Below are positions 7,170-19,585 of a stretch of DNA of 22,264 bases, piece after piece (position 1 is the stretch's first letter; each line of letters starts with the position of its first letter). The translations under genes and the position numbers were made by a program. The stretch comes from a virus, in IMG/VR virus record IMGVR_UViG_3300037153_001142, positions 1-22,264 of that record, one strand, 5' to 3'. The notes under the pieces were generated by a model, which was not told the origin of the DNA, searched no databases, and was given only the letters and a program-made list of their open reading frames with translations.

Positions 7170-7209
7170 ACGCCCCCAGCGGGCGCCGGCGCCCCCTATG
7201 CTCGGTCCC

Positions 7210-7458
7210 ATGGAAAACTGGGTGATGCTCCTCCTCGCCGCCGTCGTGGTGTTCCTCCTCTTCCGGGAGTTCTGGTGCTGGTACTGGAAGCAGTCGGAGC
7301 AGGTCAACCTGTTGAAGGAGATCCGGGACAGCCTCCGCCGCCTCGAGGCGGCGGAGGCGCCGCCCGCCCGACGGGACGGCCCGCACCCGGGGCCCGAGCC
7401 GGACCCCGCCAGGGGCTGGCGCGACCGGGTGCTGGACCGGATGGCCGGCGTCCCGTGA
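7210..7458 (+). CDS. Small single-pass membrane protein with a C-terminal coiled coil, on the opposite strand (moron-like)
   Basis: This is the only plus-strand gene I accept. From ATG 7210 it encodes 82 residues; ATG 7198 in the same frame would add four. Residues 3-18 (NWVMLLLAAVVVFLLF) form one transmembrane helix, followed by an aromatic interface (REFWCWYWK), an amphipathic helix (VNLLKEIRDSLRRLEAAE) and a charged Pro/Arg-rich end. The FWCWYWK..E...LLKEI pattern resembles small bacterial membrane proteins of unknown function. Third positions are nearly all G or C, as in the real genes here. It ends nine bases from the convergent tail tube gene. No clear ribosome site or promoter is seen. 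It could be a moron affecting superinfection, or less likely a holin; the role is unknown. Confidence 0.75.
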   Translation: MENWVMLLLAAVVVFLLFREFWCWYWKQSEQVNLLKEIRDSLRRLEAAEAPPARRDGPHPGPEPDPARGWRDRVLDRMAGVP

Positions 7459-7467
7459 GCCATCCTC

Positions 7468-7869
7468 CTACAGGTTCAGGGTCGACTGGTTGCCGAAGGC
7501 GGAGAAGCTGCCCCGCACCCGGGTCACCCCGTCCACCCGCGTCTCGATGCTGGCGTCCAGCCAGGCCAGCATCGAGATGTACTTGCTGGGCGCCCGGGCG
7601 GTGGGATAGAGGTACAGCTTGCAGCCGTCGGGGGACTCGGAGGCCGGGAAGAGCTTCGTCTCGTCCGTGTTCCAGTACCCCTCGTACGTGCCCCGCAGCG
7701 CCGGCCAGCCCTGCATCTCCTCCTGGTTGACCGAGTCGAAGTTGGTCACGTCCACCCGGGCGGTGCTCCGGTCCGCCGTCCAGGCGGTGAGGGTCAAGAC
7801 GCGCGAGGCGGTGGTGGTGGCGGACGTACTGGCGTACAGGACTCCGTCGCGCCCGTGGTAAATCGGCAC
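7468..7869 (-). CDS. Major tail tube protein
   Basis: This 133-residue protein starts at GTG 7869, with GAAGGAG seven bases upstream and four bases after the previous stop. It begins PIYHGRDGVLYAS, continues with a Ser/Thr-rich stretch (STSATTTASRVLTLTAWTAD), VDVTNFDSVNQEEMQGWPAL and ends in DGVTRVRGSFSAFGNQSTLNL. Small size, all-beta character, the VDVTNFDS motif and the place just before the tail chaperone fit the tube protein of non-contractile tails. The preceding three genes are sugar and methyl transferases, so its exposed Ser/Thr-rich region is a possible acceptor for modification; that is inference only. Confidence 0.85.
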   Translation of the reverse strand: MPIYHGRDGVLYASTSATTTASRVLTLTAWTADRSTARVDVTNFDSVNQEEMQGWPALRGTYEGYWNTDETKLFPASESPDGCKLYLYPTARAPSKYISMLAWLDASIETRVDGVTRVRGSFSAFGNQSTLNL

Positions 7870-7873
7870 CGGC

Positions 7874-8941
7874 TTACTCCTTCTCGGCTCGCTCGGTCAG
7901 GTGCGCCACCAGCTGGGCGGCGCGGTGGTGGTACGTGTCGTGCTCGACCAGCGCCGACAGCCCGGCCGCCGCGTCGCGCCGGGCGGCCTCGTTCTTCAGG
8001 AAGTGCCGGCAGAGCGTCTCCAGCTCCCTGGGGGTGTCGAAGGTGGGCACCAGGGGGCCGAACTTCTCGGACACCTCGGCCCGCCGGTGGCTGATGGTGA
8101 AGACCCCGTCGGCGGCGAGCTCGTAGGCCCGGGGGTTGAGACTCTCGGCCCCGGCCGCGCCGGCGTCCCGGTAGAGGTTGAGCCCGATGCGGGCCCGCCG
8201 GTAGAGCCGCCCCGTGGTGGCGTTGTCCACCAACCCGGGGTGGAGGTAGGGCGCCAGGGGGTGCCGTTTGGGCACGTCGTCCCAGTAGCCGTACAGCCGG
8301 AGGTCGATCCCGCTCCAGTCCACCCCGGCGAGCAGCTCCATCCGCTCCGAGAAGCCGGTGCCGACGAAGACGACGTCGAACGGCCGGTCGGCCGGCGGCT
8401 CCCACGGCCCGTCGAGCCACCACCGCCCCGGGGCATGGGTGGCCGGGTCGTAGGCCGCCGGCAGGTAGTGGGTGTTCGGGTTGGCCTCCCGCAGGAAGGG
8501 CACCGAGGCCCGCTCCTGGGTGAAGCAGACGTCGTAGTAGGGCGCGGCGCGGGCCTGCTTCTCGTCGTCGTAGGGGCTCTCGGTGAAGACGACGGCCGTC
8601 CGCAGCCCGGCCCGGCGCAGGCACTCCGCGACGTCGAGGTGGAAGAACATCCCGGAGACGACCACCACCCAGTCCGCCTCGTGCCGCAGGGCGCGGGCGA
8701 GGGTGCCCTCGCTGGCGTGGTGCTGCTCGTCGTTCGGGGTGGGTTCGACCCCCGCGAGCGGCCCGCCGGCCTCCCGCTGCTTCTTCCAGAGCAGCTGGAG
8801 CCAGTCGTGTGAGGCGTCCAGGCGGGCCCCCAGGGCGTACTCCCAGACCAGGTGGCCCCCGGCCTTCAAGCCGCCCGAGAGCCCCGTGTACACGTCCCAC
8901 GTGGCCCACGGGGCGCCCCCGTCGACGAGGAGGATCCTCAT
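7874..8941 (-). CDS. CgeB-like glycosyltransferase (GT-B fold)
   Basis: I start this at ATG 8941 (355 residues) because it overlaps the methyltransferase stop as ATGA; an upstream extension would only duplicate the neighbour in another frame. The N-terminal half begins MRILLVDGG and includes DWVVVVSGMFFHLDVAECL and TAVVFTESPYDDE. The C-terminal half has DVVFVGTGFSERMELL (189-204), LYRRARIGLNLYRD (246-259), and ESLNPRAYELAADGVFTISH (266-285), where the Glu residues are the usual nucleotide-sugar contacts. This order is that of the CgeB/spore-maturation type of GT-B enzymes, which transfer a sugar from an activated nucleotide donor. Donor and acceptor cannot be told. It closes the sugar cassette just before the tail tube gene. 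Confidence 0.88.
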   Translation of the reverse strand: MRILLVDGGAPWATWDVYTGLSGGLKAGGHLVWEYALGARLDASHDWLQLLWKKQREAGGPLAGVEPTPNDEQHHASEGTLARALRHEADWVVVVSGMFFHLDVAECLRRAGLRTAVVFTESPYDDEKQARAAPYYDVCFTQERASVPFLREANPNTHYLPAAYDPATHAPGRWWLDGPWEPPADRPFDVVFVGTGFSERMELLAGVDWSGIDLRLYGYWDDVPKRHPLAPYLHPGLVDNATTGRLYRRARIGLNLYRDAGAAGAESLNPRAYELAADGVFTISHRRAEVSEKFGPLVPTFDTPRELETLCRHFLKNEAARRDAAAGLSALVEHDTYHHRAAQLVAHLTERAEKE

Positions 8942-9492
8942 CCCGGCGCGACCTCGGGCTTCGTGCAGTCGACGCCGCAGTCCCACCAGCTGGGGACCGA
9001 GAGGCGGGGGTCGTCCCGGGCGATGTCCCCCTCGAGCCGGAAGCCGTTGCGCACCAGGGCCCGGCGCAGGGTGGCCCCGTCGTAGCTCCACTTGTGCCGG
9101 CTGGGCTGGATGGTGGAGTAGAGGAAGACCCGGCACACGCTGTCGAGGTCGTCCAGGTTCCAGAAGACCCCCTCCGGCACCTCCACCACCTCGTGGCGCT
9201 GCTCGAGGTAGCGGGCCAGGACGGCCCGGGTGTCCGGCACCACGACCCCCAGCCGGCCCCCCGGCACCAGCACCCGGCGGCACTCCCGCAGCAGCTCGTC
9301 CGCCTCGTCCGGCTCGAAGTGCTCGAGCAGGTGACCGCAGTAGATCTCGTCCACCGTGCGGTCGCCGACCGGGATGGGGGGGGCGTGGAAGTGCCGGTCG
9401 GCCGGCGTCTCGGGGTCGGCGTCCCAGTTGTCCCACCCCTCCAGACGGTACGCGCCACACCCGAGGTTGAGGCGCTTCAGGGGCCGGTTCAC
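8938..9492 (-). CDS. Class I SAM-dependent methyltransferase
   Basis: This 184-residue protein starts at GTG 9492, overlapping the preceding stop as GTGA. Motif I (RLNLGCGAYRLEGW, residues 7-20) and the following acidic DNWDADPE fit the SAM-binding loop and strand 2. HLLEHF (54-59) and LVPGGRLGVVVPD (75-87) are the usual motifs of methyltransferase family 11/12 enzymes, which act on small molecules, sugars or lipids more often than on DNA. Residues 126-134 contain STIQPSRHK, and the end has SWWDCGVDC. It lies between two glycosyltransferases with 4-base overlaps on both sides, so I infer it methylates a sugar built or attached by them. Substrate specificity is not visible. Confidence 0.88.
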   Translation of the reverse strand: MNRPLKRLNLGCGAYRLEGWDNWDADPETPADRHFHAPPIPVGDRTVDEIYCGHLLEHFEPDEADELLRECRRVLVPGGRLGVVVPDTRAVLARYLEQRHEVVEVPEGVFWNLDDLDSVCRVFLYSTIQPSRHKWSYDGATLRRALVRNGFRLEGDIARDDPRLSVPSWWDCGVDCTKPEVAPG

Positions 9493-10292
9493 GCCACGAC
9501 CTCCGGCACGAGCACCTGGAGCAGCGCCTCCCGGGCCTCCACCGGGGCGCAGCTGCGCGTCTCGTCCGTCCAGTCCTCCAGCGGGCCGGGCTTGGCCTGG
9601 GCGATCACCTCGGGCTGCCAGACCACCCGCTCGAGCCCGCCCCACTGCTCCACCGTCTCCCGGATGAAGTCGTAGTCGCCCTGGTAGCGGTTCGTCCACG
9701 TGCCGAGCTTCTCGGGGACGTTCGGGCAGACGATGTTCTCTGCGTCGATGTGGTCCTGCTTCAGCCAGCCCGCCGTGTGCCAGTACACCTGCTTCCAGGG
9801 GGCGATCCAGCGGAACAGGAAGACCCGGGGGTCGCCCTCGTGGGAGCGGAGCGCCCGGGCGATGCTGGGGAAGGCCCACCTGGTGTACACGTCGTCGTCC
9901 CCCAGCCAGGAGAGGTACTCGCCCCGGGCCACGGTGGCCCCGAAGTTCCGCTGGGGGTGGCCCACCATGTGGAGGCCGCCGTCGTGCTCGACGTAGCGCA
10001 CCAGCTCGGGGTAGCGCTCTGCCAGGTCGGCGGCGCGGTCGAGGTCGTCGCAGAACGTCCCGTCGTGGACGTCGCCCACCAGGATGACCTCATACGGCAG
10101 CCAGTCGCCCTGGCGGAGCAGGCTGTTCACCGCCCGCTCGAGGGAGGGGCGGCCGATGGTGGGGACGATCACACTCAAGAGGGGCCGTGGCGGTATCCTC
10201 GGGGGTGGGGATGCGCCCGTCCGCCCCGGACGGCCCGGGCCGGTGGTAGCCCCTTTGCCGGTCAAGCCGGCGGGCGTAGCCCTGCTCACCAT
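9489..10292 (-). CDS. Family 2-like (GT-A) glycosyltransferase
   Basis: From ATG 10292, two bases after the previous stop, this encodes 267 residues. The first 38 residues are Gly/Pro/Arg-rich and probably disordered. The GT-A domain begins at LLSVIVPTIGRPSLERAVNSLL (38-59). NFGATVARGEYLSWLGDDDVY (116-136) includes the metal- and nucleotide-binding acidic triad at 132-134, and GDYDFIRETVEQWGG lies near the C-terminus. Such enzymes use a nucleotide sugar and a divalent metal ion. It is the first gene of the cassette inserted between tail terminator and tail tube. As the domain is short and lacks membrane helices, it is probably soluble; the acceptor is unknown. Confidence 0.88.
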   Translation of the reverse strand: MVSRATPAGLTGKGATTGPGRPGRTGASPPPRIPPRPLLSVIVPTIGRPSLERAVNSLLRQGDWLPYEVILVGDVHDGTFCDDLDRAADLAERYPELVRYVEHDGGLHMVGHPQRNFGATVARGEYLSWLGDDDVYTRWAFPSIARALRSHEGDPRVFLFRWIAPWKQVYWHTAGWLKQDHIDAENIVCPNVPEKLGTWTNRYQGDYDFIRETVEQWGGLERVVWQPEVIAQAKPGPLEDWTDETRSCAPVEAREALLQVLVPEVVA

Positions 10293-10294
10293 CG

Positions 10295-10717
10295 CTACAC
10301 CGCCGTCACCTCGACCTCGAGCGCGAAGCCGAGCAACGGCACGCCGGCGGTGTCGACCGTGGTGTACGGTCGCGCCCCGCCGATGACCCGGGCGAAGTGG
10401 GCCACCCCGCCAAGGGTCACGTCGCCATCGATGGCGGCGGCAATGCTCCGCTGGCCACTCGGGGCCACGTAGGTGTCCAGGGCCTCCTGGGCCCGGTACA
10501 GGTCGGCGGCATTGACCAGCACCCAGCACTCGAACACCGGACGCCAGAGGCGCTCCGTGTCCGGCCCCATCGCCTCGTCGTACGTCCACCGGACGGGGCC
10601 GTTGACGCAGAACGCCGGGGGCTCCGGCTTGGGGTGCATCTCGGCGTAGGTGCGTAGGCCGCTGATGGTTTCTGCCCGGCGGCGCAGCCCGTCCCGCAGG
10701 TCATGGAGCGAACTCAT
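10295..10717 (-). CDS. Tail terminator / tail completion protein
   Basis: This 140-residue protein starts at ATG 10717, overlapping the previous stop as ATGA; longer upstream forms are noise from the neighbour. It begins SSLHDLRDGLRRRAETISGL, has a central FECWVLVNAADLYRAQEALD strand-helix and then APSGQRSIAAAIDGDVTLGG, a pattern typical of siphophage tail terminators (lambda gpU type), and it ends in a beta strand GFALEVEVTAV. The tail terminator caps the finished tube and joins it to the head. It sits directly after the gp10-like neck gene, as expected. The sugar cassette begins two bases after its end. Confidence 0.8.
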   Translation of the reverse strand: MSSLHDLRDGLRRRAETISGLRTYAEMHPKPEPPAFCVNGPVRWTYDEAMGPDTERLWRPVFECWVLVNAADLYRAQEALDTYVAPSGQRSIAAAIDGDVTLGGVAHFARVIGGARPYTTVDTAGVPLLGFALEVEVTAV

Positions 10718-12131: not shown

Positions 12132-13457
12132 CTAGTAGCCGGTGATCCGCACGATGGCACTCGGCCTCCAGCACACGAACGCCAACCGTTGCTCGGCCAG
12201 GATGGTCTGCTGGTTGCGGATCAGCTGGTCGTTGATCAGGCCCACCCGGATGGCGCTCTGCTCCCGATCGAAAATGCTGGTCGCCTGGGCCCAGGGGGCG
12301 ACCAGCACGGTGTCGACGGGCACGTTCTCGTCCTCCACCACGGGGAGCCCGAAGACGGTGGGCACCCCCAGCACGTTGGGCGGGCCCATCAGGTACTGCC
12401 CCAGGGTGGCGCTGGCGGCGTTCTCCCGGAGGAGCCGCACCTGCTCGTAGTCGACCGGGTTCATCAGGTAGGCCGTGGGGGCCAGCTTCGCCCCCGTCCG
12501 GGAGAGGGTGCGGGCGTGGAACAGGGCGTCGACCTCGTTGAACGAGCCCCGCCCGAAGGTCTGGATGCCGACCTGGTTGATCACCCCCAGCAGGTTCTCC
12601 CCGGTGCCGTCCCCGGCGATGATCTGCCGGGAAACCTCCTCCTGCACCCCCTGGAGGAGCTGGGTGTTGATGACCCCCCGGATCGCCGGGGCATCGGCCA
12701 GCAGCCTATTCGTCACCGGCAGCCAGGTGGCTGCCGTCCGCACGTAGGCGGTGACGTTGGCATAGACGAGCGTGCTCTCGGGCTTGCGCCCGTCGGTGCC
12801 GGTCAGGGCCGAGCCGGTGGCCTCCGGGACGAAGGAGACGTTCAGCGTGCGGGTCGTCTGCTGGATGTACTCGATGGCGTCGCTCTCGGTGGTGAGCCGG
12901 GGCACCAGGTCGAGCACGTTGACGATCTTGGGCAGGATGTCGATGACGGTGGAGCGCACGTCGGTGGGCACCAGGGCGGCGCCCCCGACGGTGCCGGCGA
13001 GGGTGGCCTTCCACTCCAAGAGCGAGGTACCGTCCGAGAGGGGGGCGGCGAACTCGAGGCGATTTAGCCCGCTGTTGAGCAGGCCGTGGTTCTTCGCCTC
13101 GAGGTACTGGACGCTGCGGGTGAACTGCTCCCCCGGGGTGAGCGGGCGGCCCTTCGTCCCCGGGGCCCCCTGCGCCGGCTGGGCGGGGAGCAGGGGCTTG
13201 GAGTAGTGGGCGAGCATCTCCTCCGTCTTCTGGCGGAGGTTGAGGGCCTCCTCGGCCCCCCCGATGCGGTCGTGGAGGAGGTCGGCCTCCGAGAGCAGGC
13301 GCTTGACCGTCTCGAGGTCGTCGCCCGTGAGGGGCTCGGCGCCGGGCCCGGTATGCTTCAGCTCGATCTCCGAGGCGGCTTCCAGGCGGGCCTTGGCCTC
13401 CTTGCGCATGTCCTCCAGCGTCATGTTGGGGCCGAGCTCGGTCACCACTGCGGCCAT
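12132..13457 (-). CDS. HK97-fold major capsid protein
   Basis: This 441-residue protein starts at ATG 13457 with a GGAG site eight bases upstream, overlapping the protease gene by 16 bases. Residues about 10-100 are charged helix (LEDMRKEAKARLEAASEIEL, TVKRLLSEADLLHDRIGG), the scaffold-like delta domain normally removed by the prohead protease. The fold proper follows: AALVPTDVRSTVIDILPKIV, an E-loop region near SFVPEATGSALTGTDGRKPE, VSRQIIAGDGTGENLLGVIN in the axial part, LAPTAYLMNPVDYEQVRLLR and GLPVVEDENVPVDTVLVAPW. It is the typical capsid layout, directly after the protease gene. Cleavage probably occurs in the Pro/Gly/Ala-rich linker (about 87-105); the exact site is not determinable here. 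Confidence 0.96.
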   Translation of the reverse strand: MAAVVTELGPNMTLEDMRKEAKARLEAASEIELKHTGPGAEPLTGDDLETVKRLLSEADLLHDRIGGAEEALNLRQKTEEMLAHYSKPLLPAQPAQGAPGTKGRPLTPGEQFTRSVQYLEAKNHGLLNSGLNRLEFAAPLSDGTSLLEWKATLAGTVGGAALVPTDVRSTVIDILPKIVNVLDLVPRLTTESDAIEYIQQTTRTLNVSFVPEATGSALTGTDGRKPESTLVYANVTAYVRTAATWLPVTNRLLADAPAIRGVINTQLLQGVQEEVSRQIIAGDGTGENLLGVINQVGIQTFGRGSFNEVDALFHARTLSRTGAKLAPTAYLMNPVDYEQVRLLRENAASATLGQYLMGPPNVLGVPTVFGLPVVEDENVPVDTVLVAPWAQATSIFDREQSAIRVGLINDQLIRNQQTILAEQRLAFVCWRPSAIVRITGY

Positions 13458-14032
13458 GTGATGGGCTCCAATCCGTGGGCGCGGCGGCCGGCGTTGATGC
13501 GCACGCGCCGCAGGTGGGCCTCGACCAGCGAGTGGCCGGGGCGGGCTTCGGGGGGCGGCACGACGTCCCGGTCTTTGACGGCCGTGACGGTGGCGCGGGG
13601 TTGCATGGGGAGGGCGACGACGCTGACCTCGAGGAGCTCGACCGCCTTCAGGTTGCGGACGTTCTTCTGCTCGTCGTGGTCGAAGTCCTTGGCGATGAAG
13701 CCGATGGAGAAGCTATCCAGCGACCCGTCCGAGAGCAGGGTGTGGACGTCCTGGCCCAGGCGGGTCTTGGAGATGCGGAAGCGCCCGAAGAGGCCCCGCT
13801 CGTCCTCGTAGAGCTCCAGGGGCCGCCCGAGCACCTGGGCGGCGTCGTGGGCGTAGAGGAAGCGGACGCGCCCCCCGGCCTCGAGCGTCTGCTTGAAGGC
13901 CCCGGGGTGGACGACGTCGTTGCCGAGGTCGCGGTCCCAGGTGGAGGCGTACCCGGCCACCTCCCAGCCGTCGTCGGCGGCCTTGACCTCCGCGATCTTC
14001 TGGGGGAGCCCGTAGGTCAGGGTGCCGGACAA
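13442..14032 (-). CDS. HK97-type prohead protease
   Basis: I choose TTG 14032 (196 residues) because GAGGGG lies eight bases upstream; TTG 14062, inside a hairpin loop, would add ten residues. The core includes EVAGYASTWDRDLGNDVVHP, GRVRFLYAHD with the likely catalytic His (about residue 62), and DGSLDSFSIGF with the likely catalytic Ser (about 109) in the SxGF context. ELLEVSVVALPMQPRATV is the next conserved strand. These are hallmarks of the S78-type prohead protease that cleaves the capsid delta domain and then itself. The end (HLRRVRINAGRRAHGLEPIT) may guide it into the prohead. It precedes the capsid gene with a 16-base overlap. Confidence 0.93.
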   Translation of the reverse strand: MSGTLTYGLPQKIAEVKAADDGWEVAGYASTWDRDLGNDVVHPGAFKQTLEAGGRVRFLYAHDAAQVLGRPLELYEDERGLFGRFRISKTRLGQDVHTLLSDGSLDSFSIGFIAKDFDHDEQKNVRNLKAVELLEVSVVALPMQPRATVTAVKDRDVVPPPEARPGHSLVEAHLRRVRINAGRRAHGLEPITWPQW

Positions 14033-14037
14033 AAGGA

Positions 14038-14070
14038 GTGCCCCTCTATGGCTCGGCCACAAAGGGGCAC
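14038..14070 (-). promoter_or_regulatory. Hairpin overlapping the probable ribosome site of the prohead protease
   Basis: An 8-base perfect stem (GTGCCCCT at 14038-14045 with AGGGGCAC at 14063-14070) encloses a 3x3 internal loop and a second 4-base stem (TGGC 14049-14052, GCCA 14056-14059) closed by TCG. On the transcribed strand the downstream arm contains most of the GAGGGG ribosome site of the protease TTG start. The arm is followed by TCCTTTTG, a short T-rich stretch, so a weak intrinsic terminator is an alternative. Either reading would lower protease and possibly capsid expression. This is read by eye, with no folding energy computed. Confidence 0.6.
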
Positions 14071-14138: not shown

Positions 14139-14348
14139 CTACTCCGTAGCGGCTGTCAATCCCGGGGCGCTGCGGACGTCGGACTTGCACCGGGGACACT
14201 TGAAGGCATACGGAGCGGCGGCGTACTCGGCGAGGCGCCGCCCGCAGCCCGTGCAGCGCAGCCCGACGTCCACCTGCTTGCCGTCGACCGTACCCGTGCC
14301 GGCACTCGCCCGGGCCAGCCGCACCACGTCCCAGCCGCGCTGCTTCAC
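14139..14348 (-). CDS. Com-like zinc-ribbon protein
   Basis: This 69-residue protein starts at GTG 14348, overlapping the glycosyltransferase stop as GTGA. Cysteines at 32, 35, 51 and 54 form two CxxC knuckles (LRCTGCGRRLAE and FKCPRCKSDV). The spacing and the KCPRCK signature match the Mu Com family of small zinc-binding translational regulators, which in Mu act on the mRNA of the DNA-modification gene mom by opening its translation start. The first 28 residues are an additional segment. The gene just upstream codes for a glycosyltransferase, and the one downstream is the prohead protease whose ribosome site is hidden in a hairpin. An RNA-binding role is family-based; the target is inference. 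Confidence 0.78.
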   Translation of the reverse strand: MKQRGWDVVRLARASAGTGTVDGKQVDVGLRCTGCGRRLAEYAAAPYAFKCPRCKSDVRSAPGLTAATE

Positions 14349-15463
14349 GCCCGCCCCATCAGCCGCTGCCAGGCCGCCGGCCAGCGCCAGTAGTTGGCCT
14401 TGAGCGACCACTTGTCCAGCACGTCCCGCCGCAGGGCATTCGCCACCCAGCGGCGCTCCTCCTCAGCGGGCCTGGCGACCAGGTACTCGAGGTACTTCTC
14501 CCACTCGTCCGCCGTGGAGGCGAGGAACCCGCTCTCGTAGTCGGAGACGACCTTGCCGTACACCGTCGGACTGGCCACGACGGCGGCCCCGCTCAAGCCG
14601 AACTCCCACGCCTTGATCGGCGTCTTACTGCGGTTGAAGGGGGTGTCGTCCAGGGGGCAACAGCCGACGTCGATCCCCACCATCCCGCGGGGGTAGTCCT
14701 GGGCCGGTAGCCAGGAGATGCGGATCACCCGCGAGTCAGGGACGTGGGCGGCCACCACCGGGGGCTGGTGCCCGAAGACGACGAAGAGCACGTCCGGGTA
14801 GCGCCGGGCGAGGCGGCCCCAGGCGACCGCCATCTCCTCCAGGTCGGCGTCCGGCCGGTTGCCCCCCGCCCAGCCGATGGTCACGTTCGGGCAGGGCCGG
14901 GGCACCCCCCGCTGGCGGCTCGTGAACCAGCCGGCGTCGATGGCGTTGGGCACCACCTCCACCGGGGCCGAGGTGTAGCGCCGCACGGTGCTGGCGAGGT
15001 ACTGGGTGCTCACCGTCACCCCGTCGCAGCGGGCCAGGGCCCACAGGGCCGCCACCCGGTCGGCCTCGAGCTCCGTCCGCGTCTTCTCCGGGTTGATCCG
15101 GCCCAGCTGCTGCTCGGTCATGAAGGGGGTGAAGAGGTCGTCGTCCGCCTCGAAGAAGACCTTGCGCCCCCGCTTGCGGAGGGTGTCCAGCCACTTGCCC
15201 GCCCGCTTGCGGTCGGTGCGGTGCCAGGCCAGGCGGCACAGCACGATGGCCTCGTAGCCCTCGAGCGGGACGTCGATCAGGGAGGGGTCGCGGACGTGGA
15301 CCCAGTCGCAGGGGTAGCCGTGCAGGCGCAGGAAGCGGGCCGGCTGCCAGGCTCGCCAAAGTGAACATCCCGACTCGTCGCCCACGATGGACAGCACCCG
15401 GGGGCCGACCAGGGGCGCGTCCAGTAACGGGTCGAGGCGGGGGAGGGGGAGGGTGGTCGTCAC
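14345..15463 (-). CDS. Glycosyltransferase, family 4-like (GT-B fold)
   Basis: The start is at GTG 15463, overlapping the MuF stop as GTGA, giving 372 residues; an upstream extension to 15502 overlaps MuF and is rejected. The N-terminal domain has PRVLSIVGDESGCSLWRAWQ (21-40) and KVFFEADDDLF (101-111). The hinge follows at VEVVPNAIDAGWF (168-180) and the second domain at VTIGWAGGNRPDADLEEM (194-211). NRSKTPIKAWEFGLSGAAVV (277-296) contains the acidic nucleotide-sugar site. This pattern is known from GT-B enzymes of cell-surface and phage glycosylation loci. No membrane helix or signal is present. Donor and acceptor are unknown; its place between head genes suggests virion modification or a regulated surface-sugar change. 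Confidence 0.85.
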   Translation of the reverse strand: MTTTLPLPRLDPLLDAPLVGPRVLSIVGDESGCSLWRAWQPARFLRLHGYPCDWVHVRDPSLIDVPLEGYEAIVLCRLAWHRTDRKRAGKWLDTLRKRGRKVFFEADDDLFTPFMTEQQLGRINPEKTRTELEADRVAALWALARCDGVTVSTQYLASTVRRYTSAPVEVVPNAIDAGWFTSRQRGVPRPCPNVTIGWAGGNRPDADLEEMAVAWGRLARRYPDVLFVVFGHQPPVVAAHVPDSRVIRISWLPAQDYPRGMVGIDVGCCPLDDTPFNRSKTPIKAWEFGLSGAAVVASPTVYGKVVSDYESGFLASTADEWEKYLEYLVARPAEEERRWVANALRRDVLDKWSLKANYWRWPAAWQRLMGRA

Positions 15464-16035
15464 GCTTGGTCGTCCACCAGGGGGATCAGCGACATCCGGC
15501 AATTGGGGTGCAACAGGCCAGGATTGCTGGAGAGCGGGACGACCTTGCCATTCCTCGACGCGCAGGGCTCGTCGGTGTCCTCGTTCTCCACGATCTGCAC
15601 CCGGCTCACCAAGCCCGTCGCTTCGTATCTGGAGACGGCCGCCGCGTTCTGGGCGATGGCTAATTCTGTGCGGCTAATCGTCTCCGCCCGCCCCCGCCAC
15701 GTCTCGAGGTACAGCCCCCGGATACCGCCGTAGCCGTCGGCCGGCACCCCGTTGGCGATCTCGTGGTCGGAGTAGCCCCGCTCCTGGCCCACCTTCAGCA
15801 CGTCCCGCAGCTGGTCGCGGGTGCTCAGGTCGATCCGCACCACCTGCTCGGCGGCGAGCGCCAGCTGCTTGCGGGTGGCCTCGTCGTCCAGCCGGAACTC
15901 CTCGGCCCCAAGGAACGGGAAGACGGACTGGAGCAGCTCGTGGACGGCCTCGAGCATCCGCAGATACCGGGGCATGAGCACGCGGGCGAGGAAGCCCTGC
16001 TCTTCCTCGGGGTCGTAGAGGTCGTCCAGGCGCAT
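15460..16035 (-). CDS. Minor head protein, short MuF-type
   Basis: This 191-residue protein starts at ATG 16035, sharing one base with the preceding stop (TGATG). After a helical N-terminus (LDDLYDPEEEQGFLARVL), it has a DLSTRDQLRDVLKVGQERGY segment and the MuF core: RAETISRTELAIAQNAAAVS (116-135), VENEDTDEPCASRNGKVVPL (149-168) and LHPNCRMSLIPL (175-186). The Cys and HPNCR pair are family hallmarks. Mu gpF-like proteins are minor head components attached near the portal and may enter the cell with DNA. It lacks any toxin-like C-terminal extension, ending just after the core. Confidence 0.88.
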   Translation of the reverse strand: MRLDDLYDPEEEQGFLARVLMPRYLRMLEAVHELLQSVFPFLGAEEFRLDDEATRKQLALAAEQVVRIDLSTRDQLRDVLKVGQERGYSDHEIANGVPADGYGGIRGLYLETWRGRAETISRTELAIAQNAAAVSRYEATGLVSRVQIVENEDTDEPCASRNGKVVPLSSNPGLLHPNCRMSLIPLVDDQA

Positions 16036-16489: not shown

Positions 16490-18046
16490 TCACGCGGCCC
16501 CCTTGCCAACCGGCGCCACGCGTGGAGCGCCGGCCCGCGTCAGCACCCGCTCCGCCTGGCCGCTCATCCAGGCGTCCAGCTCCTGCTCGAGCATCGGGCG
16601 CATCATGGCCTGGAGGACGGTCATCAACTCCGGCACGTAGGCCAGCGACTGCTTGCGCTCGGGCACCGACAGGGCCCGCCGCTCCTGCGGCGCTTGGCCG
16701 TCCTGCTGTCCACCGGGTGGCCGGTTGGCCGCCGTGATCTCCGCCATCTGCCGGGCCTGCTCCAGCGGATCCTGGGCCTCGCCCAGGCCGTTCGGCAGGG
16801 GCTCCAGTCCCACCTGGGCCCGGGCCTCGTCTTTGGTGAGCCAGCCCTTCTCCACCCCCACGCTGACCCGGGCGTAGACCTCGTTCTGGTCCTCCTGGAG
16901 GGCCCGCACGTTCGTCGTGTCGTAGCGGAAGCGGACGGCCTTGTCGGGGGCGTAGTCCACCCACAGGAGCTGCTTCGTGTACGTGGCCGCCACCACCCGC
17001 CACAGGGGGTTCACGGTCTGCTCGTAGAAATGCTCCTGGCCCTGGCGGACGTTGTTGTAGATGCTGTGCTCCAACCCGCTGGCCAGGTGGATCAGGGTGG
17101 GCGGCACCCCGGTCACGGCGCCGATGCGGGTCTCGGGGATGTAGTGGGCCTCTTTCAGGTTCAGCTGCTGGGGGGAGAAGCCGAGCTGCTGCACCGTGCC
17201 CCCGTTGCCGACCACGGCCACCCGCCCCCGGTTGGGCCCGGTCAGGCTCTCCTGCAGCCGGTCGCGCACCTGCTCGGCCTGCTCCTGGGTCAGCACCGGC
17301 CCGGGCGGGACGGTGACGGCGAGCGAGGTGACCCCGGTATTCTTCAAGACGGCGTCGGTGAAGCGCGTCGCCTCCTCGTCGGAAGCGATCTCCCGGATCA
17401 GGCGCCGCAGGGGCGACATCCCCAGCCGGTGGTCGGCGTCGTCGATCTGGAGCCGGAAGTGGAGCACGTCTTCCGGGGGCAGCTCGTCCCGGAACCCCTT
17501 GCCGTCGTCGAAGACGTAGTGGCTGATGAAGACGCCCCGGCGCCGGTCGTCCTCGGTCGTCTCCGGCTGCATCTGGGTGGGGCTAATGGGCCAGAGCTGT
17601 TTGACCGCGCCCGCGCGGTCGCGGATCTTGCGCAAGTAGGCGTTGCCGTCGACGTTGAGCACGAAGGCCAGCCAGCCGTTCAGCTCCGCCTGGGACAGCG
17701 AGGGGTGGGGGTCGGCCAACAGCTGCATCACGGGGTGGCCGTCGATCCAGTCCTCGGTGCCGTCGGCCCCGTGGCGGCTGACCCGCAGCGGCGCCTCCTG
17801 GAAGGCCGAGGCGAGCTCCTTGAGGCAGGCGAACACCGCCGAGTTCAGCGTGGTCGTGCCGCCGAAGGCCGTCGTTACCGGGTTCCAGTACGCCCCCCCG
17901 AAGGCGTCCGGGGTGTAGGTGTCCGTGGTGAAGACCACGGAGGTCTGCTTCAGTTCGGGGGCGGGGGCGGGGGGCGGCTCGGGCATCCGGGCCTTCAGGT
18001 CTTCCCCGCGCAGGTAGTCGCGCACCAGGGTCAGCACACTAGCCAT
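16490..18046 (-). CDS. Portal protein (HK97 type)
   Basis: This 518-residue protein starts at ATG 18046, overlapping the preceding gene by eight bases. The family's features appear in order: TLNSAVFACLKELASAFQEA (about 66-85), HPVMQLLADPHPSLSQAELN, FVLNVDGNAYLRKIRD, PPEDVLHFRLQIDDADHRLG, MSPLRRLIREIASDEEATRF, KEAHYIPETRIGAVTGVPPT and EHFYEQTVNPLWRVV. Twelve copies form the ring through which DNA is packaged. The last 90 residues are Gln/Pro-rich and then helical, and probably project toward the head interior. Length is at the upper end of the HK97 portal range (about 400-520). Confidence 0.95.
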   Translation of the reverse strand: MASVLTLVRDYLRGEDLKARMPEPPPAPAPELKQTSVVFTTDTYTPDAFGGAYWNPVTTAFGGTTTLNSAVFACLKELASAFQEAPLRVSRHGADGTEDWIDGHPVMQLLADPHPSLSQAELNGWLAFVLNVDGNAYLRKIRDRAGAVKQLWPISPTQMQPETTEDDRRRGVFISHYVFDDGKGFRDELPPEDVLHFRLQIDDADHRLGMSPLRRLIREIASDEEATRFTDAVLKNTGVTSLAVTVPPGPVLTQEQAEQVRDRLQESLTGPNRGRVAVVGNGGTVQQLGFSPQQLNLKEAHYIPETRIGAVTGVPPTLIHLASGLEHSIYNNVRQGQEHFYEQTVNPLWRVVAATYTKQLLWVDYAPDKAVRFRYDTTNVRALQEDQNEVYARVSVGVEKGWLTKDEARAQVGLEPLPNGLGEAQDPLEQARQMAEITAANRPPGGQQDGQAPQERRALSVPERKQSLAYVPELMTVLQAMMRPMLEQELDAWMSGQAERVLTRAGAPRVAPVGKGAA

Positions 18047-18386
18047 CGTCGTCGTCGTCCTCGTACGGTTCCCGGCCCTCGAGCACCCGGGCCCTGACCC
18101 GGCGGTGTCCCGCCGCCGCCTCGTCCCAGGTCGCGTAGCGCCGGCAGTAGCTCTCCTGGAGGTCGTCCTCGCTCTTGAAGAGCATCGTCTCGAAGAGCAG
18201 GGGAGGGCCGGCCCCGTACTGGTGGTCGAAGCCGAGGAAGACCGTGGACAGCCACCGGCCGTCCGGGAGCGTCTCCTGGGCCACGGCCCGTTTCGGACCC
18301 GGGTGCTCAGCCCACCACCGGCTGAAGGCCACGATGTCCACCGGCTTCGGCTCGTGGCCCTCGAGGACGTAATGCTCCCAGCGCAT
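18039..18386 (-). CDS. Conserved phage protein of 115 residues, unknown function
   Basis: I use ATG 18386 because it shares a base with the terminase stop (TGATG); an upstream ATG at 18398 would add four residues. The sequence contains VAFSRWWAEHPGPKRAVAQE, LSTVFLGFDHQYGAGPPLLF and FETMLFKSE, followed by RRYATWDEAAAGHRRV. The STVFLGxDHxF..GPPLLFETM pattern with a later Y(S/A)TWxEAxxGH is widespread in tailed phages, though I know no function for it. It ends with six Asp and Glu-rich residues. It lies between TerL and portal, so a packaging or head role is plausible but unproven. Confidence 0.82.
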   Translation of the reverse strand: MRWEHYVLEGHEPKPVDIVAFSRWWAEHPGPKRAVAQETLPDGRWLSTVFLGFDHQYGAGPPLLFETMLFKSEDDLQESYCRRYATWDEAAAGHRRVRARVLEGREPYEDDDDDG

Positions 18387-19585
18387 CAGAACACCCACTC
18401 CGTCGGTTGGCTGGCCCCATAGTACGCCAGCGCGAGCGCAATAACGCAGTCATCATGCAGCGTCTCCGGGGCCGCGTACCGGATCAGTCCGCTCGGTAGG
18501 CGCTCGGCCTCGAACGCCAGCAGCTCGTTCAGCAGCACCTCATCCTTGAGCAGGCGCAGCTCCTCCCGCTCGAGCGCCAGGGCCAGGGCGTCGATCACCG
18601 CCATCTTGCTCGCGTTCGTCGTCTGGAACGGGTAGACGGGCAGGCTCATCCGCTGGAGTTGCTCGACCAGGGGCTCACCCATGGCGTTCTGCTCCGCAAA
18701 AATTGCGTCGGGTTTGAACCGCTCACAGAGCGCCCGCAGGCGGCCCAACTGGACGGCGTAGTCCACCTGGTTGCTGCGGTCGAGGGCGACCACCTCCTTG
18801 GTGGTGCAGTCGATCACCACGAAACACGAAAAATCCAGGGCGCGCCCCCAATCACAACCAACCGAGTAGCGGTGACCCTCGAGCGCTCCAGCCTGGGGCG
18901 TCGCCATCGCCGCCTCGAGCACCTTCCTGAAGACCTGGCCCTCCGCCTCCAGAAATACCGCATTGAATTCCTGGGCGAAGGTGCGCTCGGGCAGGGTGCG
19001 CCGGCTGTCGTCCACCTCGTCGGCGGGGATGTAGGGGTTGGAGAGGGTGGGCATCTGCCAGGCCGCCCAGTCCGGATAGCCCGGATCCGCTCCCCGGTCA
19101 TACAGGCGCTTGAAGAAGTTGAGCCCCTTGGGGGTGGACAGGAACCAGGCCCCGCCCCGGTAGTCGACCAGGGTCGGGCGGAGCACGGCGTTCCAGGCCT
19201 CCTCGAGGTGGCGCACCATGGCCGCCTCGTCGACGATGACCTCGGCGTACTTGCGCCCCCGGGCGACGTCGGGCTGATCCAAGCTCCACATCTCGATCAC
19301 CCCCCCGCCCAGGAGCTCGAGCCGGTGCTGCTGGCTGTCGATCCGGGAGAGCACGGGGCCCGCCGCCCGGCGCACGTCCCGCCAGACCTCGGTCAGCATC
19401 CGGTAGGAGGGGGAACACCAGGCGACGGGGTTGCCGGGGAGGGCGCGGAGCAGCAGCCGGTTCACCCCCAGGGTCGTCTTGCCAAACCTGCGGCCGCAGC
19501 AGAGCACGTTGAACCGGGACTGCCCGGCCAGGACGGCAGCCTGGGCCTTATGGGGCCTGGGGAGCGTCACCGTCAGGACCGGCAT
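18386..19585 (-). CDS. terL: Terminase large subunit (ATPase and nuclease)
   Basis: This 399-residue protein starts at ATG 19585, inside the end of the small-subunit gene (38-base overlap). The ATPase half has a Walker A CGRRFGKTT (30-38), an AWCSPSYRMLTEVWRD adenine region, Walker B AEVIVDEAA with D119 and E120, and the coupling motif STP (150-152). The nuclease half has GCDWG with D245, FAEQN with E298 and LHDD with D378/D379, the acidic residues of the RNase H-like nuclease that cuts the packaged DNA. All key residues are present, so it is probably active. It is somewhat shorter than the usual 420-550 residues. Confidence 0.96.
   Translation of the reverse strand: MPVLTVTLPRPHKAQAAVLAGQSRFNVLCCGRRFGKTTLGVNRLLLRALPGNPVAWCSPSYRMLTEVWRDVRRAAGPVLSRIDSQQHRLELLGGGVIEMWSLDQPDVARGRKYAEVIVDEAAMVRHLEEAWNAVLRPTLVDYRGGAWFLSTPKGLNFFKRLYDRGADPGYPDWAAWQMPTLSNPYIPADEVDDSRRTLPERTFAQEFNAVFLEAEGQVFRKVLEAAMATPQAGALEGHRYSVGCDWGRALDFSCFVVIDCTTKEVVALDRSNQVDYAVQLGRLRALCERFKPDAIFAEQNAMGEPLVEQLQRMSLPVYPFQTTNASKMAVIDALALALEREELRLLKDEVLLNELLAFEAERLPSGLIRYAAPETLHDDCVIALALAYYGASQPTEWVF

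Follow-up and report, generated by a model that had tools for sequence, protein, structure and literature searches.

The late operon of an uncultured, siphovirus-like contig was found to carry a cassette of three genes, encoding a GT-A glycosyltransferase (GT), a methyltransferase and a CgeB-like GT, all on the minus strand between the tail terminator and tail tube genes. The fixed core of this arrangement is the pair of CgeB-like GT and tail tube and not the three-gene unit, because many relatives lack the GT-A enzyme and the methyltransferase or have others in their place, and the CgeB-like GT alone is constant. The cassette probably serves to glycosylate the virion, and specifically the tail tube. 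The tube is strongly favoured as the acceptor because GT and tube are reciprocally linked across very divergent phages and because the genes in the slot between terminator and GT are of the sugar-chemistry type. A sequence-only reading of the same DNA had proposed coordinated sugar attachment and methylation of virion proteins by the three coupled genes; linkage and slot chemistry favour such a virion modification, but not the three genes as its conserved core. Virion glycosylation has been documented in few phages, and the question at stake is how a GT finds its acceptor. The near-absolute two-way linkage of a GT family to one structural protein points to the enzyme, the substrate and a candidate loop.

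Gene content of the window and layout of the cassette

The window, meaning the whole stretch of DNA that was analysed, is a complete and linear IMG/VR virus record of 22,264 bases. Its late operon lies on the minus strand and encodes terminase, portal, a MuF-like protein, a GT, a Com-like zinc-ribbon protein, prohead protease and major capsid protein, followed by connectors, tail terminator, the cassette, tail tube, a probable chaperone, a probable tape measure protein and distal tail genes. The features used below are as follows.

18386-19585, minus strand: terminase, late operon
16490-18046, minus strand: portal, late operon
14345-15502, minus strand: fourth glycosyltransferase, GT4/GT-B like, 385 aa, between MuF-like protein and prohead protease (PHROG 7162, 1.3e-22)
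13442-14062, minus strand: prohead protease, late operon
12132-13457, minus strand: major capsid protein, late operon
10295-10717, minus strand: tail terminator, upstream border of the cassette (PHROG 17840, 1.3e-23)
9489-10292, minus strand: GT-A glycosyltransferase, GT2 family, 267 aa (PF00535, Glycos_transf_2, 1.5e-11; alignment of relatives)
8938-9492, minus strand: SAM-dependent methyltransferase, 184 aa (PF08241, Methyltransf_11, 2.4e-7)
7874-8941, minus strand: CgeB-like GT-B glycosyltransferase, 355 aa, the constant member (PF13524, Glyco_trans_1_2, 3.5e-18)
7468-7869, minus strand: tail tube protein, 133 aa, proposed acceptor (PHROG 1407, major tail protein, 3.7e-6)
7810-7830, minus strand: codons of tube residues 14-20, candidate O-glycosylation site (Ser/Thr density; β1-β2 loop in the model)

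The small Com-like zinc-ribbon protein (14139-14411, minus strand), which has weak Pfam matches, is encoded between the fourth GT and the protease and recurs in relatives. Between tube and chaperone, an opposite-strand gene of the window (7198-7458, plus strand) encodes a small putative membrane protein, and the same gap holds an opposite-strand gene for a putative secreted DUF4352 protein in L011 (5460-6335, minus strand) and L012 (10452-11342, minus strand). This gap looks like a moron site.

The terminator stop codon occupies 10297-10295 and the GT-A gene starts with ATG at 10292, leaving a gap of 2 nt. The GT-A gene stops at 9489 and the methyltransferase starts with GTG at 9492, an overlap of 4 nt (GTGA); similarly, the methyltransferase stops at 8938 and the CgeB-like GT starts with ATG at 8941, an overlap of 4 nt (ATGA). 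The TAA of the CgeB-like GT ends at 7874, and the tube gene starts with GTG at 7869 after a gap of 4 nt. Because of these internal overlaps and short outer gaps, translation is likely to be coupled across the cassette. The enzyme families named in the sequence-only reading all received significant Pfam scores, the four-base overlaps were found at both internal junctions, and the flanking genes that it had named are confirmed as terminator and tube by their PHROG matches.

The CgeB-like GT scored 66.4 bits against PF13524, for which the gathering cut-off is 25, and belongs to this family. Its AF2 model (pLDDT 95.8) has a GT-B fold with GT4 enzymes such as BshA and MshA as nearest Foldseek neighbours, and its invariant residues in the alignment of relatives include R271 and E274. 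A search of PDB sequences with its profile gave no match. The GT-A enzyme is assigned to GT2 by its PF00535 match and its DXD motif (D132-D134), and these residues and the GDDD motif are invariant among relatives; its first 33-35 residues or so are an extension specific to this contig and found in none of the relatives. The methyltransferase is of class I by its Pfam match and its glycine-rich motif I (N9-L10-G11-x-G13), which is again invariant, so that the catalytic motifs of all three enzymes are invariant among relatives. For the tube, profile matches to 8qhs, 6tba and 8gtb were obtained, and its AF2 model (pLDDT 90.6, alignment of 75 sequences) matched the monocin, R4C, lambda gpV and RcGTA tail tubes in Foldseek; homology and fold thus both identify it as a tail tube.

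Conservation in close relatives

Eleven IMG/VR contigs were collected by terminator homology and further ones by capsid homology. In every one of these relatives whose contig spans the region, a GT-A enzyme, a methyltransferase and a CgeB-like GT separate terminator and tube. The gene order of the window recurs in L004, L006, L007, L009, L011 and L015; L003 and L012 share it except for the methyltransferase, which is a different SAM methyltransferase at the same place and gave no tblastn match to the type of the window. Among these relatives the proteins are 58-69% identical, with intact frames and dN/dS below 1. The recurrent order, intact frames and dN/dS show that the cassette is not a product of chance: it is real, conserved and under selection. 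In the distant relative L002 the CgeB-like GT stands alone between terminator and tube.

The tube is 91-94% identical between the window and its nearest relatives, against 58-79% for most neighbouring genes. Most tube pairs gave dN/dS values of about 0.07-0.27, compared with 0.26-0.73 in the three enzymes (Nei-Gojobori counts, which are rough at this GC content). In the pair L012 and L004, the tubes are identical and the GTs differ by 9%.

Reciprocal linkage of the CgeB-like GT and the tail tube

A profile search with the CgeB-like GT returned 286 contigs with one pattern, and the best 80 of the 286 were kept. The linkage was counted from both sides. On the GT side, the members found by GT homology were clustered at 90% identity, leaving out contig ends and finds made by the tube only; the tube gene lay immediately downstream of the GT in 76 of the 88 distinct members and within 2.5 kb in 10 more. 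The remaining two are a fragment at the left end of its contig (L166) and a second copy whose main copy is elsewhere on the contig (L176). On the tube side, 80 tubes were found with a separate tube profile that took no account of the GT, and every one was linked: the CgeB-like GT was immediately upstream in 76 and within about 1 kb in four, and no tube lacking the GT was found inside the GT-linked clade among these 80. The linkage persists even where the GTs are 31-39% identical and the tubes about 20%. These lineages are not independent events, the linkage being inherited.

A scan of 84,980 prokaryote genomes gave only two members of the CgeB-like GT, distant homologues in a Gallionellaceae MAG and a Chloroflexi MAG, and both were near tubes. 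Among phage records, tblastn with four CgeB-like proteins and the tube as queries found nothing except two weak Acinetobacter phage matches, and no record of the annotated phage collection matched the CgeB-like GT or the tube of the window. The sequence-only reading had drawn its parallel from actinobacterial phages; for the window, an actinobacterial setting finds no support in these matches. On the Gallionellaceae contig (L140, 8001-10521) the CgeB-like GT is accompanied by two tandem tail tube genes, and the region is probably a prophage. L056 and L057 have the GT-less type of tube, and a divergent CgeB-like GT and a GT-A enzyme are encoded elsewhere in them, between portal and gp10-like genes. 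A mirror-tree test was dropped as evidence specific to the tube, since the GT-tube distance correlation was no higher than that between the GT and other structural genes.

A modular slot between terminator and GT

The interval between terminator and CgeB-like GT varies from nothing, through one methyltransferase or a GT-A enzyme with a methyltransferase, to larger islands. It is empty, giving terminator-GT-tube, in L002, L101, L164, L203 and others. Its annotated contents are DegT/DnrJ/EryC1 aminotransferases in nine loci (L091, L092, L093, L110, L115, L117, L118, L187 and L195), GNAT acetyltransferases in four (L093, L115, L118 and L187), radical SAM/SPASM proteins in four (L097, L098, L171 and L178), FkbM-type and other methyltransferases (L195, L120, L140 and L176), GT2 enzymes (L089, L092, L116 and L188), a short-chain dehydrogenase (SDR) in L091 and a cytidylyltransferase-like protein in L116. 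The best matches of the DegT proteins, below the curated cut-off, are nucleotide-sugar transaminases such as PseC. All annotated slot genes are glycan-type enzymes or tail genes, with no toxin or defence gene seen among them, and no single locus was seen to hold a complete nucleotide-sugar pathway. These contents are those expected of a glycan-assembly island. Next to the GT, two protein families of about 220-300 aa recur that have no Pfam or NCBIfam match (for example L036, 2604-3257, and L186, 1388-2071), and these are possibly new glycan enzymes.

A candidate acceptor loop on the tube

The Ser/Thr-rich stretch of the window tube is STSATTT at residues 14-20, which form the loop between the strands 10-13 and 22-30 in the AF2 model. 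Across the 77 distinct tubes of the main GT-linked clade the loop has the consensus S-T-[ST]-G-[ST]-G. It holds 3.9 Ser/Thr residues on average, where composition would predict 1.4, and no other 7-residue window of the tube is as rich in them. Enrichment in this clade is also seen at S79 and S107. The GT-linked tubes of L126, L134 and L136, from a distant clade, have no Ser/Thr in the loop, and therefore the loop is not a universal acceptor. It is the leading candidate acceptor for the main clade only. The proposal of the sequence-only reading, that the Ser/Thr-rich N-terminal part of the tube is the acceptor, thus narrows to this densest loop and to this clade.

That reading had also called for a comparison with relatives lacking the cassette. 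Tubes without the GT mostly carry D-P-x-G-G at the loop position; Ser14 was present in 40 of 59 GT-linked tubes and none of 29 GT-less ones, and Tyr12 in 51/59 and 0/29, respectively. The loop does differ, but the GT-less tubes found here form one clade, so this contrast is inseparable from ancestry and was not taken as independent evidence. Tyr12 was also rejected as a necessary acceptor, since several GT-linked tubes carry L, M or F there.

Proposed function and alternative explanations

The following scheme is inferred throughout, from the catalysis itself and the residue that accepts the sugar to the sequence of steps, the methylation of a sugar instead of the protein, and the role in the phage. 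The CgeB-like GT, a proposed tube glycosyltransferase with putative activity on a protein acceptor, would be translated just ahead of the tube and would move the first sugar from a nucleotide-sugar donor to a Ser/Thr of the tube. This transfer would be cytoplasmic, would precede or accompany tail polymerisation, and would most likely occur at the β1-β2 loop of residues 14-20. The GT-A enzyme would then lengthen the glycan and the methyltransferase would O-methylate it. Exchangeable slot enzymes would give a phage-specific glycan on a conserved tube, which may shield or alter the tail surface. There is about an even chance that a large uncultured siphovirus-like group combines an obligate, dedicated tube GT with a modular island and so makes a lineage-specific, partly amino-sugar and methylated tube glycan, a tail "serotype" system.

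The enzymes might instead act on another virion protein (capsid, fibre or tape measure) and be encoded ahead of the tube simply because late expression is convenient there. The mycobacteriophage capsid is glycosylated as well as the tube, according to the reports cited below, and the window has a further GT beside the capsid genes, in the slot of the Wildflower cassette described below. This fourth GT is conserved by synteny in L005, L008, L010 and L012-L019 and is possibly a capsid or other virion glycosyltransferase; the window may thus have two glycosylation loci, one by the capsid genes and one by the tube. However, the capsid-side slot then has its own GT, and both searches, from the GT and from the tube, found the CgeB-like GT beside the tube, also in phages whose terminator-side genes are different. 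This explanation is thus considered unlikely.

It is well known that prophage GTs can alter host surface polysaccharide, and a role of this kind, in receptor change or superinfection exclusion, would agree with the weak similarity of the GT-A enzyme and the fourth GT to the polysaccharide GTs WcaA, TuaG and TuaH. The cassette, however, has no flippase or membrane protein and is coupled by 4-nt overlaps within a late structural operon, and the strict tube linkage would be left without a reason, which makes such a role rather improbable. The differing gene content of the slot could also mark a moron hotspot for unrelated accessory genes; the restriction of its annotated genes to glycan-type enzymes and tail genes, their operon orientation and the near-invariant CgeB-like GT at the 3' end make this very doubtful. 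Glycosylation of phage DNA bases, as in T4-like phages, is hardly credible: T4 α-glucosyltransferase (1y6f) is among the structural matches, along with many further GT-B enzymes, but the GT4 enzymes BshA and MshA match better, the location is in the tail operon, and the contig showed no recognisable gene for a hydroxymethylase or another base-modifying enzyme.

A tail tube glycosylation module therefore remains the preferred explanation. The pairing of GT and tube with swappable sugar genes suggests, at the level of sequence, that many uncultured phages decorate their tails with custom sugars, and that sugar-coated tails are common among environmental phages and missing from isolated-phage records. 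Nature offers well over a hundred variants, with exchangeable sugar genes, and the enzyme-acceptor question can be reduced to two genes in a laboratory host.

Comparison with known systems

In flagellin-type glycosylation islands, a PseC-like aminotransferase, an acetyltransferase and a GT are among the modular sugar genes that accompany a gene for a tubular polymer protein. The slot may be analogous in its modular sugar-biosynthesis genes close to such a gene and in the PseC similarity of its DegT proteins; the difference is that phage tails are concerned here and that the complete nucleotide-sugar pathway was not seen in any single locus.

CgeB of Bacillus has been listed among the GTs possibly building or anchoring spore crust glycans, with CgeA as a possible glycosylation target (PMC10502511). 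It shares PF13524, above the gathering score, with the GT of the window, and the distant phage member in L134 is 23-25% identical to the Bacillus CgeB/DUF3880 proteins that it matches. The phage enzymes differ in this very low identity, in forming a phage subfamily and in having the tail tube as neighbour.

The closest functional parallel is found in mycobacteriophages. In Che8, Corndog and Myrna, virion proteins are glycosylated by phage-encoded GTs, and the glycans are reported to sit at the C-termini of capsid and tail tube subunits (PMC12363180, PMC12619734); Corndog-type cluster O phages carry three GTs downstream of an O-methyltransferase (PMC11600133). These GTs, joined by a methyltransferase in cluster O, act on siphovirus capsid and tail tube, and the phage-encoded GTs of the window would do likewise for its tube, where the candidate site is, however, an N-terminal loop. 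The loci also differ. The Che8 GTs are at the right end of the genome and not beside the tube, and single-sequence comparison, which has limited power, gave no significant alignment of the window GTs with Che8 gp108-110. In the cluster O phage Wildflower, the O-methyltransferase and three GTs occupy the interval between portal and protease, the slot of the fourth GT of the window, and are away from the tube, unlike the CgeB-like GT. Mycobacteriophages are thus already known to glycosylate their virions, tail tubes included, by different GTs encoded at different loci, whereas the GT family, its strict linkage to the tube and the modular island appear to be undescribed in the open-access literature searched.
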